Source of the DNA: Halorubrum halophilum
Lineage (GTDB): Archaea; Halobacteriota; Halobacteria; Halobacteriales; Haloferacaceae
DNA length: 64,000 nt
NCBI RefSeq assembly: GCF_000739595.1
Contig: NZ_BBJP01000039.1
Location: forward strand, 1-64,000
Reading direction: 5' to 3'
Numbering within the stretch: the first letter of the stretch is position 1; each line of letters opens with the position of its first letter. The notes under the pieces were generated by a model. That model saw only the letters and a program-made list of their open reading frames with translations. It ran no database searches and was not told the origin of the DNA. A program made the position numbers and the translations under genes. Positions 11,295 through 17,942 of the stretch are shown here, piece after piece.

Positions 11295-11762
11295 TCACGA
11301 AATATGAGTAATAGTAATCTCAGGAAGTGAGTGTGCTGCCGGCTCAAATTCGGCGAAGGACTCGTCGTTCGTGAAGATGGTTGGTTCGCGATCACGATGC
11401 TCAAACGCCAACACAAGGATTGGAACGTCTTTCGGCTGGATCCCACAGACACGGGCCAGTGTTCGTACTGTGGGCGCCGACCGTTGTTCTCGGAGGAGCG
11501 CATCGCTCGTATCACGACTTGATGGCGCTTCGATGAGACCCGTCATCCGGGTGAGCCGCGTCACAAAATTGGTTTTGACGGTGTCTCGTTCTGTCGCAGA
11601 GAGGCCCTTCGTGCGATCGAATGCGGCCAACGCCTCTTGGAGCATATACGCGCTGATCGCCGATGTTGTCTCACCGCGATCGATTGCTGTAAGCAATTCG
11701 GTTGCCTCCTTGTTGGTTCGCAGTGTCCCGAATACCCACAGATTTGTATCGAGAATTTTCAC
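11295..11762 (-). CDS. vapC: PIN-domain toxin (VapC-like)
   Basis: 155-residue PIN-domain ribonuclease. The expected acidic residues are present: D5 in KILDTNLWV, E43 in MLQEAL, D112 in PKDVPILVLAF, and the T-N-D triad at 131-133 (FTNDESFA). PIN toxins of this kind cleave RNA with Mg2+ and are held inactive by a small DNA-binding antitoxin. The ATG overlaps the stop of the upstream RHH gene by four bases (ATGA), as in many vapBC operons. All catalytic positions are intact. Confidence 0.88.
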   Translation of the reverse strand: MKILDTNLWVFGTLRTNKEATELLTAIDRGETTSAISAYMLQEALAAFDRTKGLSATERDTVKTNFVTRLTRMTGLIEAPSSRDTSDALLREQRSAPTVRTLARVCGIQPKDVPILVLAFEHRDREPTIFTNDESFAEFEPAAHSLPEITITHIS

Positions 11763-12091
11763 GAATCAGATCCATACACTTGCGTGGCTGTCTCTTCACG
11801 GGCCTCTTCGACGGCCTGTTCAAGATCGTCTGGATCGACTTTCTCGCCGAGTGCGGTAAGCTCAGCGTTGATCTCCTTATCTGATTGGTGGCTCTGTTCA
11901 GCCTGTGCGAGCAGTTGCTCTAGGCGAAGCGCAGTGATTGCCGCGTCGTCATTAAGTTCGCGAAGATGTGATCGGCAGGCTTCCTTGATGAACTCGCTTT
12001 TGTTGGTGTAAATACCCGTCTCATCGAGGAACCGCTCGATCTCGGTGTCCAACTCAACCGGGAATTTGACACTGACACTCGCGTACTTCAT
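11759..12091 (-). CDS. Ribbon-helix-helix antitoxin partner of the PIN toxin
   Basis: 110 residues. N-terminal RHH DNA-binding domain (YASVSVKFPVELDTEIERF strand-helix, then the second helix NKSEFIKEACRSHL), followed by a long helical, acidic C-terminus likely to bind the toxin. Overlaps the toxin gene by 4 bp. The start codon lies directly next to an 18-bp perfect palindrome, the probable operator for autoregulation. Confidence 0.85.
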   Translation of the reverse strand: MKYASVSVKFPVELDTEIERFLDETGIYTNKSEFIKEACRSHLRELNDDAAITALRLEQLLAQAEQSHQSDKEINAELTALGEKVDPDDLEQAVEEAREETATQVYGSDS

Positions 12092-13550: not shown

Positions 13551-13680
13551 CGTGAGATCGAACTGTGACTGTGCGTCGACCTCGTAGCAGTTGTTGGTAA
13601 TACGATTTCTTTAATCAGTCTGCCCCGCGAACATTTGTCAGGCGATTCATCGTCGTTCATGGATTGATTCACCAGTGTAG

Positions 13681-14592
13681 TCAGCGCTCTTCCGCTGATT
13701 CTTGATACTGATCGGTGAGGGGCTTCAGCCGCAGTTCCCCGAAGCCGTATCGAGAGTGCGATCCGACTCGGTGGAGGCCGTTCTTTGCGGTCTCCACCGG
13801 GCGGTCTCCGAGGTACTTCACGACTTGTCCGTGGTCCACCGTCTCCAACCTGAATACCTCGCACTGTTCGAGGAGCTTCTCCTCACGGAGCCGGAGATCG
13901 TCGCGGTTCTCCGCCCACCACCACGGAATAACGCAGTCGTCCGCGTCGGGATACTCCGTCTCCACCACGAACGGTGTTACGAGCTCGATCAAGTACGTCT
14001 CCGCGTCTTCGAGCCGGGAGTAGTCAAGGTCATCCAGATCCACCATCTGCGTGTCCTTCAGCTGAACCTCGCCGTAGCCGTAGTTCCGTTTGCCACCGAA
14101 CTGAAGACCCTCAAGCATGTCCTCGCCGAGCGGGAGCACCGCCGGGTCATCAGCGTGGAGGTAGGCGTGAACGTACCACTTGGTTGTCTGCTGTTGCTTC
14201 CATTGGTCTTCCTGGCGGCCCATGATGGTTTCGTGGGCGAGCGCCGGATGGCCGCCGTGGACGCGAATACCGTGCGTGTTCAGCGCGTCTCGAGCGCGGG
14301 TGTCGAGAAGCCACGGGTGAATGGCTTCCCGCTGGAGGAAGAGGTCGTCGTAGGCCTCGACGTCTGGCAGACCACTCCCAAGGTACGGGCGGACGCCCGA
14401 CTGTGTGTGTTCTTCTGGGAACGCCCCGAACTGACCAGGGACGAACACACCGTGGCTGGCCGATACTGCCGCGTGCGTCTCGGGATCGAGTCGCTGGCCA
14501 AGCGCGTGTAAGATGGCGTTTCCACTCACGTAGTACGGGTGGCCGATGTAGTCCATCCGCAGTTCCCACAGGACTTGCTGAATCGCCATCAT
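13681..14592 (-). CDS. Cas5-like RAMP protein of an HRAMP-type locus
   Basis: About 303 residues. Two glycine-rich segments typical of RAMP (RRM-fold) proteins are visible: LQFGGKRNYGYGEVQL in the middle and VGSHSRYGFGELRLKP at the C-terminus. I relate it to the diverged Cas5 homolog of HRAMP, a derived class 1 CRISPR-Cas-like system of haloarchaea lacking an array. The start at 14592 (MMAIQQVLWELRMDY) is preferred over the ATG at 14745, which would overlap the upstream gene by more than 100 bp. It is the third gene of a minus-strand operon, 46 bp after the middle gene. Confidence 0.65.
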   Translation of the reverse strand: MMAIQQVLWELRMDYIGHPYYVSGNAILHALGQRLDPETHAAVSASHGVFVPGQFGAFPEEHTQSGVRPYLGSGLPDVEAYDDLFLQREAIHPWLLDTRARDALNTHGIRVHGGHPALAHETIMGRQEDQWKQQQTTKWYVHAYLHADDPAVLPLGEDMLEGLQFGGKRNYGYGEVQLKDTQMVDLDDLDYSRLEDAETYLIELVTPFVVETEYPDADDCVIPWWWAENRDDLRLREEKLLEQCEVFRLETVDHGQVVKYLGDRPVETAKNGLHRVGSHSRYGFGELRLKPLTDQYQESAEER

Positions 14593-14638
14593 CGGTCGGG
14601 CCTCCAATTCTCGAAGTCCTCGATGTAATTCATATTGG

Positions 14639-15403
14639 TTATGCGATTTCTTCAGTAGGTTTGTGTGGTCTGTAGCTCCAGTCCGCGAAGTCCTCGATGT
14701 ATTGGAGTGCGGTACTCCACGACTGTATCCGCCGAAGATTGGCATCGAGCGTCATGTCGTACTTGTCGCGGTCGGTATCGAGCGGGTGCGCAGTCAGGCG
14801 GTTCCACGTCGATGCCCACGACCGCCACGGGCGACTCCCGAGACGCGCCGACGGATTCCCGTCTGTGCTCACGTCGATCCGGAGCGCGAAGCGGTCGCCG
14901 TCGAAGACGGTTCGGAACGGAACAACGTCACCGGCTGTGTCAACAATGAGCCGAAGGTTGCCGAACTCGTGATCGGCACGGTAGTTGTCCAAGAGGGCTG
15001 CCACGAGCAGCGTGTGGAACTTCAGCGAGGTGTATGGATGATACACCGACTCGTTGAACGCGGCGGCGACGTCACTTTTGATCCACCGTTCGTGGGCCGT
15101 CTCTGCGTCCTCGATGCCGAGGAGGTTCGATACCTCACTCTCGGTGGTTGCCCGAGAGAACCCACCGGGGTTGTAGGCAGTCTCACCGGTCAGCAACGAG
15201 AGTCGATAGTGGTCGTCGTGTGTCGGGACCGTCTGTTCTTGCTTCTGTTGTGGCCGCGAGAGCGCCGCCGCATCGCCGTCCGCGCCCTGCGGGACCGTCT
15301 GGTTCACGGACACGCCAGCGAACTCCTGACGAGCATCGTCGTGACTCTCGCCCGTGAACTTGTGAGCGTCGTGGCGGAACGCCGTGAGCATCACGTCGTT
15401 CAT
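14639..15403 (-). CDS. HRAMP uncharacterised middle protein
   Basis: 254 residues from the ATG at 15403 (MNDVMLTAFRHDAHKF), which overlaps the Cas7-like stop by four bases (ATGA). Conserved-looking features: an N-terminal FRHDAHKFTGE, a DDHYRLSLLTGETAYNPGG segment, and a C-terminal helical part rich in Trp (SRPWRSWASTWNRLTAH). No known domain was recognised. Its place between Cas7-like and Cas5-like genes matches the uncharacterised conserved protein reported for HRAMP loci. It may be a structural subunit of a ribonucleoprotein; that is inference. Confidence 0.6.
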   Translation of the reverse strand: MNDVMLTAFRHDAHKFTGESHDDARQEFAGVSVNQTVPQGADGDAAALSRPQQKQEQTVPTHDDHYRLSLLTGETAYNPGGFSRATTESEVSNLLGIEDAETAHERWIKSDVAAAFNESVYHPYTSLKFHTLLVAALLDNYRADHEFGNLRLIVDTAGDVVPFRTVFDGDRFALRIDVSTDGNPSARLGSRPWRSWASTWNRLTAHPLDTDRDKYDMTLDANLRRIQSWSTALQYIEDFADWSYRPHKPTEEIA

Positions 15404-16257
15404 ACTTCCTCCACGCGCTCTGCGAGCGCCGCCTGAAACTCTGGTAGGTACTCGGTTTCCCACTTCTCGTCTTTCTTGCCCATCTTGTGCGTGCTGTCTT
15501 TGCTCCGATCGAAGACGCGACGGAATTCGTGTTCCTCGTAGAGTGGGTTCACCAACTCACAATCCACAATCCCGCCGCCGAAGTTCCGCGCGCCACCGAG
15601 CTGGTGTATGAACTCGGTGTTGTGCGCGTTGAGATACTCGATGGCCTCAGCGAGCAGCGCGACGAATTCGGGTTTCGTCTCCCGGAAAGAGAGGTGCCAC
15701 GAGCCGTCGAGGTTCCCGACAGCGTCAAGTTCGGCGTTCCGAAGCGGTTCTCGGTTGTCGTGTTTGTTCCGCGAGACGACGTTCCGGTTGAGCCGGCGGT
15801 AGTGGCCCTCGGCCTGTCCTCGCGTGTAGTCTACGCTGGACCGAACTGGCGAGAACTTGATCGGGCGACGCATCACTTTCCCAGGGCGATTCTCGAACCC
15901 ACCGAAGAGATCGAGAATCACACACCCGGTGCCGTCATCGTCGTCAAGGCACTCGCCTTTCGGGTGATACCCGGCATCGAGGTCGCGGTTATAGACACCG
16001 TCTTTCCGGAAGTTCGCGTTGGCCTCTCCGGGGTGACAGGCAGTACCGCCACGCTTCTGAACGACCTTCTCCATCCCGTGACGAAGCCATCCCGACAGTG
16101 AGAATGCCGGGATGATGCCGCCAATCTGGTTCTGCGGGTCGGTGTCCTCGTAGTTGCCGTTCGAGGCGTGGTGACGATCGGTCATGATGCTGTCACCGAC
16201 CACTAACAAGTCGGTGCGAATCCGAACGAAAACGTCGGAATCGATATCTTCAATCAT
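15400..16257 (-). CDS. Cas7-like RAMP protein of an HRAMP-type locus
   Basis: 285 residues. RAMP-like features: an N-terminal strand and glycine loop (VFVRIRTDLLVVGDSIM), the GGIIPAFSLSGWLRHGMEKV helix, a long insert with Cys and His residues (CHPGEANANFRKDG, GECLDDDDGTGCVILDLFGG), and a C-terminal G-rich element (QLGGARNFGGGIVDCELV) like those of Cas7-family backbone subunits. The two Cys/His groups could bind zinc. First gene of the Cas7-like/middle/Cas5-like operon. The assignment to HRAMP rests on gene order and G-rich motifs, not on a search. Confidence 0.7.
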   Translation of the reverse strand: MIEDIDSDVFVRIRTDLLVVGDSIMTDRHHASNGNYEDTDPQNQIGGIIPAFSLSGWLRHGMEKVVQKRGGTACHPGEANANFRKDGVYNRDLDAGYHPKGECLDDDDGTGCVILDLFGGFENRPGKVMRRPIKFSPVRSSVDYTRGQAEGHYRRLNRNVVSRNKHDNREPLRNAELDAVGNLDGSWHLSFRETKPEFVALLAEAIEYLNAHNTEFIHQLGGARNFGGGIVDCELVNPLYEEHEFRRVFDRSKDSTHKMGKKDEKWETEYLPEFQAALAERVEEV

Positions 16258-16424
16258 GGGTTACTTGATCACCTGCGGGCTGGTCGTCGGACAGACGAGT
16301 CCCGCAGTGGAGCTACCGGTATTGTGGCTGCTGAGCTGGATCGCTCGCTCATGAGCTGTAGGCTGACGGTGTATCACGAGCGATTGCCGTAGACTGAGGT
16401 CTTGATGGATTAGATTGCCCGCCA
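16258..16424. other. Leader between the zinc-finger operon and the Cas7-like gene
   Basis: 167 bp without an open frame that looks coding. It separates two minus-strand gene groups and may hold a promoter for the HRAMP-like genes, but no clear TATA-like element is visible in it, so read-through from 17399 is possible. No CRISPR-like repeats were seen here. Confidence 0.3.
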
Positions 16425-16901
16425 TTACTCAGACTCCGCTTGGAGTGCGCCCCCGACCGAGCGAGTGTGCTCCCGGATCGCGGTCAGCAAGGGTGTGGGT
16501 TCCTGCTGTTGGGTATTGGTTGGCGAACGCTCTGTGGGGGTGTCTGGACGGACGTGTGGCTCCCTGCTTGTCATCGGGCTGGTAACCACTGCCTCCGGAC
16601 CAAGCAGAACATACGTCATCGATTGGGTACGCACGTCAGCGCATGTCCCGATGTGGCCCGTCAGGACGTACTCGCGAACACCGCGGGTGAAGACAGTGGG
16701 GTGTTCGTGAACATCTGAACCGCACATGATGTAGCCGATCGCGTACGCGGGTTCGCCGGCCGCGCGGTAGGCGTAGGCGGTGATGTCGTCGCCTTCGTGG
16801 AGCGGTTGGCTACAGACTTGGCAGATCGGGTGGTTGGTGTTGAGTAAGATGCGTGAAAGCTGGGAGAGATCTGCGGCTTGCGGATCGTCGGGGCGGGTCA
16901 T
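16425..16901 (-). CDS. Zinc-finger protein of haloarchaeal mobile DNA (function unknown)
   Basis: 158 residues from the ATG at 16901, overlapping the upstream wHTH stop by four bases. A CQVC zinc knuckle near residue 30 (HPICQVCSQPLHEGDD) is paired with a later Cys (GYIMCGSDVHEH) and further His/Cys (HIGTCADV). A Pro/Thr-rich linker and a short helical tail follow. Similar small zinc proteins are common in haloarchaeal plasmids and viruses. It lies upstream of the HRAMP-like operon on the same strand. Confidence 0.55.
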   Translation of the reverse strand: MTRPDDPQAADLSQLSRILLNTNHPICQVCSQPLHEGDDITAYAYRAAGEPAYAIGYIMCGSDVHEHPTVFTRGVREYVLTGHIGTCADVRTQSMTYVLLGPEAVVTSPMTSREPHVRPDTPTERSPTNTQQQEPTPLLTAIREHTRSVGGALQAESE

Positions 16902-17215
16902 TCGTGCCCTCCCTCGGCGTTGCGAGTGCCAGCTTGCCACGCCTGGCGCGCGGAGAGTGCGCGGCGGGTCGATTCGGTGAGTCGGTACTTGGTCGTGTCG
17001 TGGGTTTGTTTCGTGACGTAGTCGTGTTCGATGAGCTCCTCGAGGGTGTCACAGACCCGGGCTTGGTCGATACCGTTAGTGTAGTAGTCGTCGAGTGCGT
17101 GGTGGAGTGGACCGCTCTCGCTGGGGCCAGTCTGAGAGAGTACCCAGAGCAGGTCGCGGTGGGTGGCTGAGAGATCGGCAAGCGAGATGCCGTCGTTCTC
17201 GCTGGGGCTAGGCAT
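16898..17215 (-). CDS. PadR/phiH1-like winged-helix regulator
   Basis: 105 residues from the ATG at 17215 (MPSPSENDGISLADLSATHR). Winged-helix pattern: DLLWVLSQTGPSESGPLHHA, then QARVCDTLEELIEHDYVTK and a wing KYRLTESTRRAL, followed by a short tail. It overlaps the preceding zinc-finger gene by 8 bp and the next gene by 4 bp, so the three form a tight operon. It could regulate the HRAMP-like genes downstream. An earlier in-frame start (17317) would overlap the upstream gene by 110 bp and is less likely. Confidence 0.65.
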   Translation of the reverse strand: MPSPSENDGISLADLSATHRDLLWVLSQTGPSESGPLHHALDDYYTNGIDQARVCDTLEELIEHDYVTKQTHDTTKYRLTESTRRALSARQAWQAGTRNAEGGHE

Positions 17216-17399
17216 TGTGCCCCTCCACGGTGTCCTCGTCGACGCTGCGTGTCGTAGCGCACGGTGTACAGAGTGGGCCGTCGAAGGCAGCGTAGTACCC
17301 GTCGGCTGTGTTTTCACACAGACGACAGCTGGAGGAATTCCCGTTCGATCCGTCAGTCGTCTCGCAGGGCTTAAGCCCCGCAGTTGCCAGCATTAGCAT
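17208..17399 (-). CDS. Small zinc-finger protein
   Basis: 63 residues with two CXXC pairs (CRLCEN and CTPCATT) about 22 residues apart around an aromatic FDGPL segment, a compact zinc ribbon. First gene of the minus-strand operon 17399-16425. Small haloarchaeal zinc ribbons of this type often sit beside wHTH genes in mobile DNA. Exact role unknown. The start could also be the ATG six bases downstream. Confidence 0.5.
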   Translation of the reverse strand: MLMLATAGLKPCETTDGSNGNSSSCRLCENTADGYYAAFDGPLCTPCATTRSVDEDTVEGHNA

Positions 17400-17621
17400 G
17401 GTTCTGTGTCACCGCACAGAACCCGTCCCGGCCGGGTGCTGGAACACCGCGGCCGGGATTTCGACACTCTCTCACGAGCCAAGGGTTCGTCACTCGGGTT
17501 CCGTATAACAATGATTGACTTCTGGTAACATATACTTGACGGTGGTATCTGATATGTGCTTTAGCTAGTCTATAAGTGCTATTCATCCGTAATATAGACT
17601 ATGACATTGAATATGTGCTCT

Positions 17622-17942
17622 ATGAGGCATTCAGGCAAGTGGATGACTTCTCTTGATGATCGAATTTTAGAGTTTCTTTATGAAAATAAACCGACAACAC
17701 CCACGAAAATGACTACAGAGGCATCTCTACCTTACTCTAGACAGCACGTCGACAGGAGATGCAAAAAACTGGATGAAGAAGGCCTCCTCGAAAGCTTAGG
17801 GAATGGTGTCTACATGATCACTGAAGCCGGTGAGGCATATCTCGAAGGTCGTTTGGACACTGAAGATTGGCGGTATATTGACGAAGAGACTGATGAGGAC
17901 GCCCATGATGATTCGGCTGAAGACGTTGTTACTGACGACTGA
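17622..17942 (+). CDS. phiH1-repressor-like winged-helix protein
   Basis: About 106 residues. Starts MRHSGKWMTSLDDRILEFLY, the typical N-terminus of haloarchaeal phiH1-repressor-like proteins, followed by a wHTH (SRQHVDRRCKKLDEEGLLE), a wing (GVYMITEAGEAYLEG) and an acidic tail. I chose the ATG at 17622; ATGs at 17601 and 17643 are also in frame. The surrounding DNA is more AT-rich than its neighbours. It stands alone, divergent from the operon at 17399. Confidence 0.7.
   Translation: MRHSGKWMTSLDDRILEFLYENKPTTPTKMTTEASLPYSRQHVDRRCKKLDEEGLLESLGNGVYMITEAGEAYLEGRLDTEDWRYIDEETDEDAHDDSAEDVVTDD

Follow-up and report, generated by a model that had tools for sequence, protein, structure and literature searches.

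Comparison of haloarchaeal genomes makes it very probable that one clade of HRAMP loci, referred to here as clade A, is borne on a transposon and lacks the partner nucleases with which HRAMP has been associated. The window, a stretch of 64,000 nucleotides from Halorubrum halophilum, contains such a locus, with genes for a Cas7-like protein, an uncharacterized protein (protein B) and a Cas5-like protein, followed by the right end of the transposon. The original description of HRAMP is reportedly that of Makarova et al. (2019), and the system has since remained an orphan that has neither an array nor a known guide and for which a dependence on linked nucleases has been proposed. A large clade that consistently lacks nucleases and rides on a transposon whose transposase is largely dedicated to such loci would change what needs to be explained and make HRAMP testable; the culturable type strain Halobacterium salinarum 91-R6 carries the transposase along with Cas7, B and Cas5 on plasmid pHSAL2.

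Genes and proteins of the HRAMP locus in the window

The following features were identified in and around the locus.

11295–12091: overlapping RHH and PIN genes, by appearance a VapBC-like toxin-antitoxin pair
13588–13617, minus strand: right terminal inverted repeat TGATTAAAGAAATCGTATTACCAACAACTG, 53.2 of 55.8 bits
13681–14592, minus strand: Cas5/Cmr3-like RAMP protein with two glycine-rich motifs, 303 aa (PADLOC Cmr3, structure model)
14639–15403, minus strand: protein B, conserved and uncharacterized, 254 aa, no family match
15400–16257, minus strand: Cas7/Csm3-like RAMP protein of HRAMP clade A, 285 aa (Pfam RAMPs, PADLOC Csm3, tree)
16425–16901, minus strand: C2C2 zinc-finger protein ZF3; members of its family precede Cas7 in 19 of 20 clade B loci
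16898–17215, minus strand: wHTH protein, with a homolog at the same place only in L041 among the surveyed loci
17208–17399, minus strand: small protein with a zinc ribbon; its gene is the first in the operon
17400–17505, minus strand: structured leader directly before the ATG, with a long outer stem and hairpins, a second of which overlaps the 3′ arm of the stem (fold z-score)
17601–17942, plus strand: divergent small HTH gene, in the position of the small HTH genes of other loci

The genes are transcribed in the order Cas7, B, Cas5, which agrees with the order given in the initial annotation and is conserved across the surveyed loci. The stop codon of the Cas7-like gene overlaps the start codon of the B gene as ATGA, and the length of the Cas5-like protein was counted from the ATG that agrees with its homologs. 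The glycine-rich motifs that had been taken to mark all three genes do exist, but GGKRNYGYGEV and RYGFGELRLKP are both located in the Cas5-like protein and GGARNFGGGIV in the Cas7-like protein, while protein B has no such motif. A 26-bp near-duplication (88%; 14602–14627 versus 14676–14701) was observed at the junction of B and Cas5, where the end of B seems to have been duplicated, so that a short vestigial reading frame precedes Cas5. In line with the array-less locus described initially, direct repeats at 11–20 kb of the window consisted of two-copy families only and no CRISPR array was present there, while a whole-genome search identified no Cas1. The genome contains just one match to the RAMPs family.

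The identification of the locus as HRAMP was upheld by profile and structure comparisons. The Cas7-like protein matched the Pfam RAMPs family with 23.2 bits (1.1e-4), which is above the curated cut-off of 22.1, as did 9 of 22 homologs, and it matched Csm3 in PADLOC at 4.6e-6. D22, H29 and H30 are among the residues of Cas7 that do not vary. Cmr3 in PADLOC was matched by the Cas5-like protein at 1.2e-7 and by all of its 29 homologs, and the structure model (pLDDT 71.5) gave RAMP-fold matches to chain C of a type VII CRISPR complex, Cas6, Csm4 and Cmr3, with E-values from 3e-5 to 6e-4. Profile searches of PDB sequences yielded nothing meaningful for Cas7, B or Cas5, and protein B matched no family. 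The AlphaFold2 model of protein B had a pLDDT of 89 and a pTM of 0.90, and its top Foldseek matches were mostly Cas10/Csm1/Cmr2 chains, of which none was significant (best E-value 0.35, TM-score at most 0.45). The resemblance of the model to a Cas10-type subunit is thus below significance and suggestive only. Clustering alone recovers protein B in 51 of 60 loci, in each case flanked by Cas7 and Cas5, and the alignment of 40 homologs contains 40 invariant residues.

According to two publications that describe HRAMP, the system consists of diverged Cas5 and Cas7 proteins and an uncharacterized protein in haloarchaea, has no array, shows affinity to type III and is typically linked to HNH or PD-(D/E)xK nucleases (PMC8730458, PMC12669027). 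The window locus likewise has diverged Cas7 and Cas5 proteins nearer to type III, an extra conserved uncharacterized protein (B), no array and a haloarchaeal host. A link to these nucleases is found neither in the window nor in clade A, and is not strictly required, since the published wording is “typically”. The evidence supports the view that the three genes constitute a genuine HRAMP unit rather than a chance association. The nearest named relative is Halorubrum yunnanense (95%).

Two HRAMP clades

Of the 392 genomes available for the order, 97 contain homologs to Cas7, which were also present in 21 plasmid records; phage records gave no match. We surveyed 61 loci with flanking regions (L003 included), of which 20 belong to clade B and 41 to clade A, with the window additional to the 41. 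The two clades were separated with 100/100 support in a tree of 60 full-length Cas7 proteins. The gene order in clade B is a small divergent HTH gene, a ZF3-type zinc finger (19 of 20 loci), Cas7, B and Cas5. Downstream of these follow a DnaQ-like protein, seen in 18 of the 20 loci, and a nuclease-like protein, which was present in all 20 and is of the HNH type in 16 and PD-(D/E)xK-like in 4. The HNH (1.6e-9) and RNase_H_2 (5e-4) assignments were obtained by profile, while the DnaQ and PD-(D/E)xK readings are motifs judged by eye. Neither the HNH and PD-(D/E)xK-like families nor the DnaQ-like protein were found in any of the 41 clade A loci, in which variable small genes located between the HTH gene and Cas7 encode proteins with a Tat signal, zinc fingers or a RuvC protein resembling TnpB.

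The initial annotation had correctly observed that no partner nuclease is present near the three window genes; judging from the gene content of the surveyed loci, this appears to be a property of the entire clade A and not of the window alone. The suggestion that a nuclease is supplied in trans, by the PIN gene at 11295 or by TnpB genes, was not supported, with the downstream nuclease families of clade B absent from all 41 clade A loci and the PIN gene overlapping the RHH gene of the VapBC-like pair. The operon upstream of Cas7 is real, with overlapping stops and starts between its three genes, but the proposal that it belongs to the system holds only in part: a ZF3 gene before Cas7 is nearly universal in clade B but uncommon in clade A, and the nearest relative, L041, is the only other locus to share the zinc ribbon and the wHTH.

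The term nuclease-less is not absolute for clade A, because the operon of four loci (L042, L045, L053, L060) includes a gene for a TnpB-like RuvC protein. This TnpB-derived protein of 220 aa, with the RuvC motifs D, E, D, a zinc ribbon and a Cas12f1-like TNB domain (4e-10), is encoded directly upstream of Cas7, with its stop overlapping the Cas7 start, and is a possible candidate effector of some clade A loci. Small Tat-signal protein families with no known function were observed between the leader and Cas7 in L043, L044, L047, L054, L056, L062, L068 and L121, and a ParE-like and RHH toxin-antitoxin pair between the transposase and the HTH gene in L042, L043 and L046.

Transposon ends and target site duplications in clade A

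In the window and in 34 of the 41 loci of clade A, Cas5 is closely followed by a conserved right-end sequence, TGAATAAAGAAATCGTATTACCAACAACTG (score of at least 17 bits). This sequence was identified in none of the 20 clade B loci, where the best score was 4.9 bits. Inverted copies of this sequence are located upstream in clade A loci, and in 13 loci both end copies are flanked by an identical target site duplication (TSD) of 4 bases with the pattern NTAN. In a strict test of the 18 loci with an exact right end, a left site bearing the matching 4 bases was found in 12, as compared to 11 of 278 for mismatched 4-mers, and this site was the best in the whole upstream stretch in 11 of the 12. Empty sites were also identified. 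The insertion at L060 in genome G082 is 4,236 bp long and has no transposase, and its flanks are joined uninterrupted with a single TTAT in three related genomes (G370, G236 and G314); the insertion site of L061 is contiguous in its relative G117. Location within a transposon is proved for the 13 loci rather than for every clade A locus, because left ends were not found in most of them, the window included.

Full elements consist of a left inverted repeat, an ISH3-like DDE transposase, a small HTH gene, a divergent part with the structured leader, variable small genes, Cas7, B and Cas5, and the right inverted repeat, with the 4-bp target duplication flanking the whole. HRAMP is the usual yet dispensable content of these elements, because derivatives that have lost HRAMP parts retain the ends and the TSD, namely L117 (TTAT), which holds the 3′ end of Cas5, L121 (CTAA) and L141 (TTAT). 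Conversely, L044, L047, L053 and L060 are cassettes without a transposase that have TSDs and retain the HRAMP genes. Short MITE-like elements of 390–520 bp with the same ends and NTAN duplications were observed in L117, L118 and L119, and in genome G021, which contains 22 end copies. Pairs of 14-kb repeats in G021 were rejected as elements, since they contain ordinary chromosomal genes.

The transposase of the full elements, about 600 aa long, scores above the cut-off for DDE_Tnp_1, is closest to ISH3 and has a conserved Y-R-E-K motif, but its scores of 115 and 82 bits are below the ISH3 equivalog cut-off of 225. The 392 genomes contain 24 matches, of which 13 have a Cas7 gene no more than 5 kb away and a fourteenth has one at 11 kb; the others are fragments, broken copies or have less than 39% identity. 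The transposase is thus largely confined to clade A loci. A stricter claim of exclusivity is weakened by L141, which has the TSD but no HRAMP, and by L140, in which Cas7 is missing. The latter, on a related Halobacterium plasmid (NZ_EU080936.1), is an element that retains B and Cas5. On pHSAL2 of H. salinarum 91-R6 (NZ_CP038633.1; L138, L139), the transposase is HBSAL_RS12670, while Cas7 (HBSAL_RS12640), B (HBSAL_RS12635) and Cas5 (HBSAL_RS12630) are annotated as hypothetical.

The copy in the window

The transposon end in the window, located about 65 bp past the Cas5 gene, was overlooked in the initial annotation. Its flank, CTAC (13584–13587), fits NTAN, and a search of the genome that allowed up to 3 mismatches detected no further copy; a control with the reversed pattern gave none. 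A search of 47 kb upstream revealed no left end, and the transposase is absent from the genome at an E-value of 1e-40. The window copy is stranded, with the right end retained and the left end and transposase lost or never present. The nearest relative, L041, has the same upstream genes and is likewise without left end and transposase.

The three window proteins appear to be under purifying selection, and hence maintained, because dN/dS between the window and other loci, estimated from few pairs, was 0.08–0.25 in nearly all comparisons, with a maximum of 0.35. Recombination between HRAMP copies is likely to have occurred, because the window Cas7 is nearest to L041 (95%) but the window Cas5 is nearest to L042 (91%, as compared to 82% for L041).

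A structured leader RNA

In many HRAMP operons, a strongly covarying RNA with a three-way junction is located ahead of the first gene. Changes on both sides were observed for 10 of 20 pairs, and 95% of the cells were paired, as compared to at most 44% when slid. The 3′ arm of the outer stem can also pair with a second hairpin beside the start codon, and these overlapping pairings suggest a switch. No Rfam family was matched above chance. The window leader has a fold z-score of −3.7, with 0 of 200 shuffles equally stable, and no covariation support of its own. It was not detected by model R1, but its architecture is the same as that of the covarying leader of other HRAMP loci, of which it represents a divergent version.

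The leader was considered as an HRAMP-specific guide RNA and rejected. It is likelier to be a general cis element, because model R1 matches many non-HRAMP loci, before SWIM/zinc-finger genes, including genomes without a Cas7 match. Leader loci include L003, L044, L048, L068 and L089, and the non-HRAMP loci L101–L113, L120 and L122; the window's own genome has a copy at G000:C98:119628-119718. Leaders are found with zinc-finger/SWIM-type and HRAMP operons across haloarchaea, sometimes as several copies within a few kb (L122).

Proposed function and alternatives

We consider it probable that clade A is a nuclease-less, transposon-carried HRAMP clade encoding a cargo complex that acts on RNA with no nuclease as its partner. 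For the function taken separately, a cargo complex acting on RNA comes close to an even chance, some other function is a tentative possibility, and targeting of the element by the RAMP complex is unlikely. In the reading that we favor, Cas7, Cas5 and B would assemble into an RNA-bound RAMP complex with Cas7 as the backbone, Cas5 as the cap and B perhaps as a shrunken Cas10-like subunit. The complex would act through binding or through an RNase activity of Cas7 itself, as in type III, and would benefit the element and its host through silencing or defense. We infer this because such a complex is consistent with the missing nucleases, with purifying selection on the genes and with their relationship to type III. 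Cas1 was present in about 17 of 46 clade A genomes by hand count, as compared to 131 of 392 overall, which is no clear enrichment, and clade A therefore cannot generally obtain crRNA from a resident CRISPR system.

The complex might alternatively guide the element's own transposase to RNA-specified targets. The loss of the nuclease coincides with the association to a largely dedicated transposase clade, the Cas genes always adjoin the right end, and the four transposase-less cassettes have moved with their HRAMP genes kept, all of which would fit such a role. However, neither an array nor a guide was found, no TniQ- or TnsC-like gene was noticed in the elements and the insertion sites appear unrelated. 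This unlikely explanation is further weakened because TSD-bounded derivatives have been mobile without HRAMP (L117, L121, L141) and because the window copy is preserved in a genome without such a transposase. Its most specific form, that clade A represents archaeal CRISPR-transposons independent of Tn7, in which an array-less, type III-derived complex directs the ISH3-like transposase to RNA-specified sites with a guide from the leader or right end of the element, is very unlikely. The pairing of clade B with nucleases, and the TnpB-derived RuvC/zinc protein whose gene overlaps Cas7, could indicate that clade A is a defense module, carried incidentally by the transposon, that uses nucleases from other genes; we regard this as quite unlikely, since only 4 of the 41 loci in clade A encode the TnpB-derived protein and the window, where the PIN gene is part of a VapBC-like pair, does not. 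It is highly improbable that the window genes are merely decaying and without a present function in this genome: the copy lacks its left end and transposase, and many truncated copies occur in other genomes, but all three reading frames are intact, the dN/dS values are low in most comparisons, and the genes are also retained at L041, the locus of a second genome that is truncated in the same way.

Comparison with known systems

Clade A resembles HRAMP, as characterized in the publications cited above, in its Cas5 and Cas7 homologs, the uncharacterized protein, the haloarchaeal hosts, the missing array and the affinity to type III, but the form described there is linked to nucleases, whereas clade A has no such link and is borne on a transposon. 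No mention of HRAMP within transposons and no report of a transposon-borne, nuclease-less variant were found in the literature searched, which did not include the original 2019 paper.

In Tn7-like CASTs, a nuclease-deficient Cascade guides transposition to RNA-specified targets. Clade A is similar to the Tn7- and Mu-like CASTs in that nuclease-less class 1 Cas genes are located in a transposon with inverted repeats and a TSD, of which the window copy keeps one end. It differs by its single ISH3/IS4-type DDE transposase, the 4-bp TSD, the missing array and the fact that no accessory transposition proteins were seen. Members of the ISH3 family generate a short target duplication, and their DDE transposase shares the Y-R-E-K motif with that of clade A, which differs in that the transposase of about 600 aa falls below the family cut-off and in that the element, 3–11 kb in size, carries HRAMP and other cargo.
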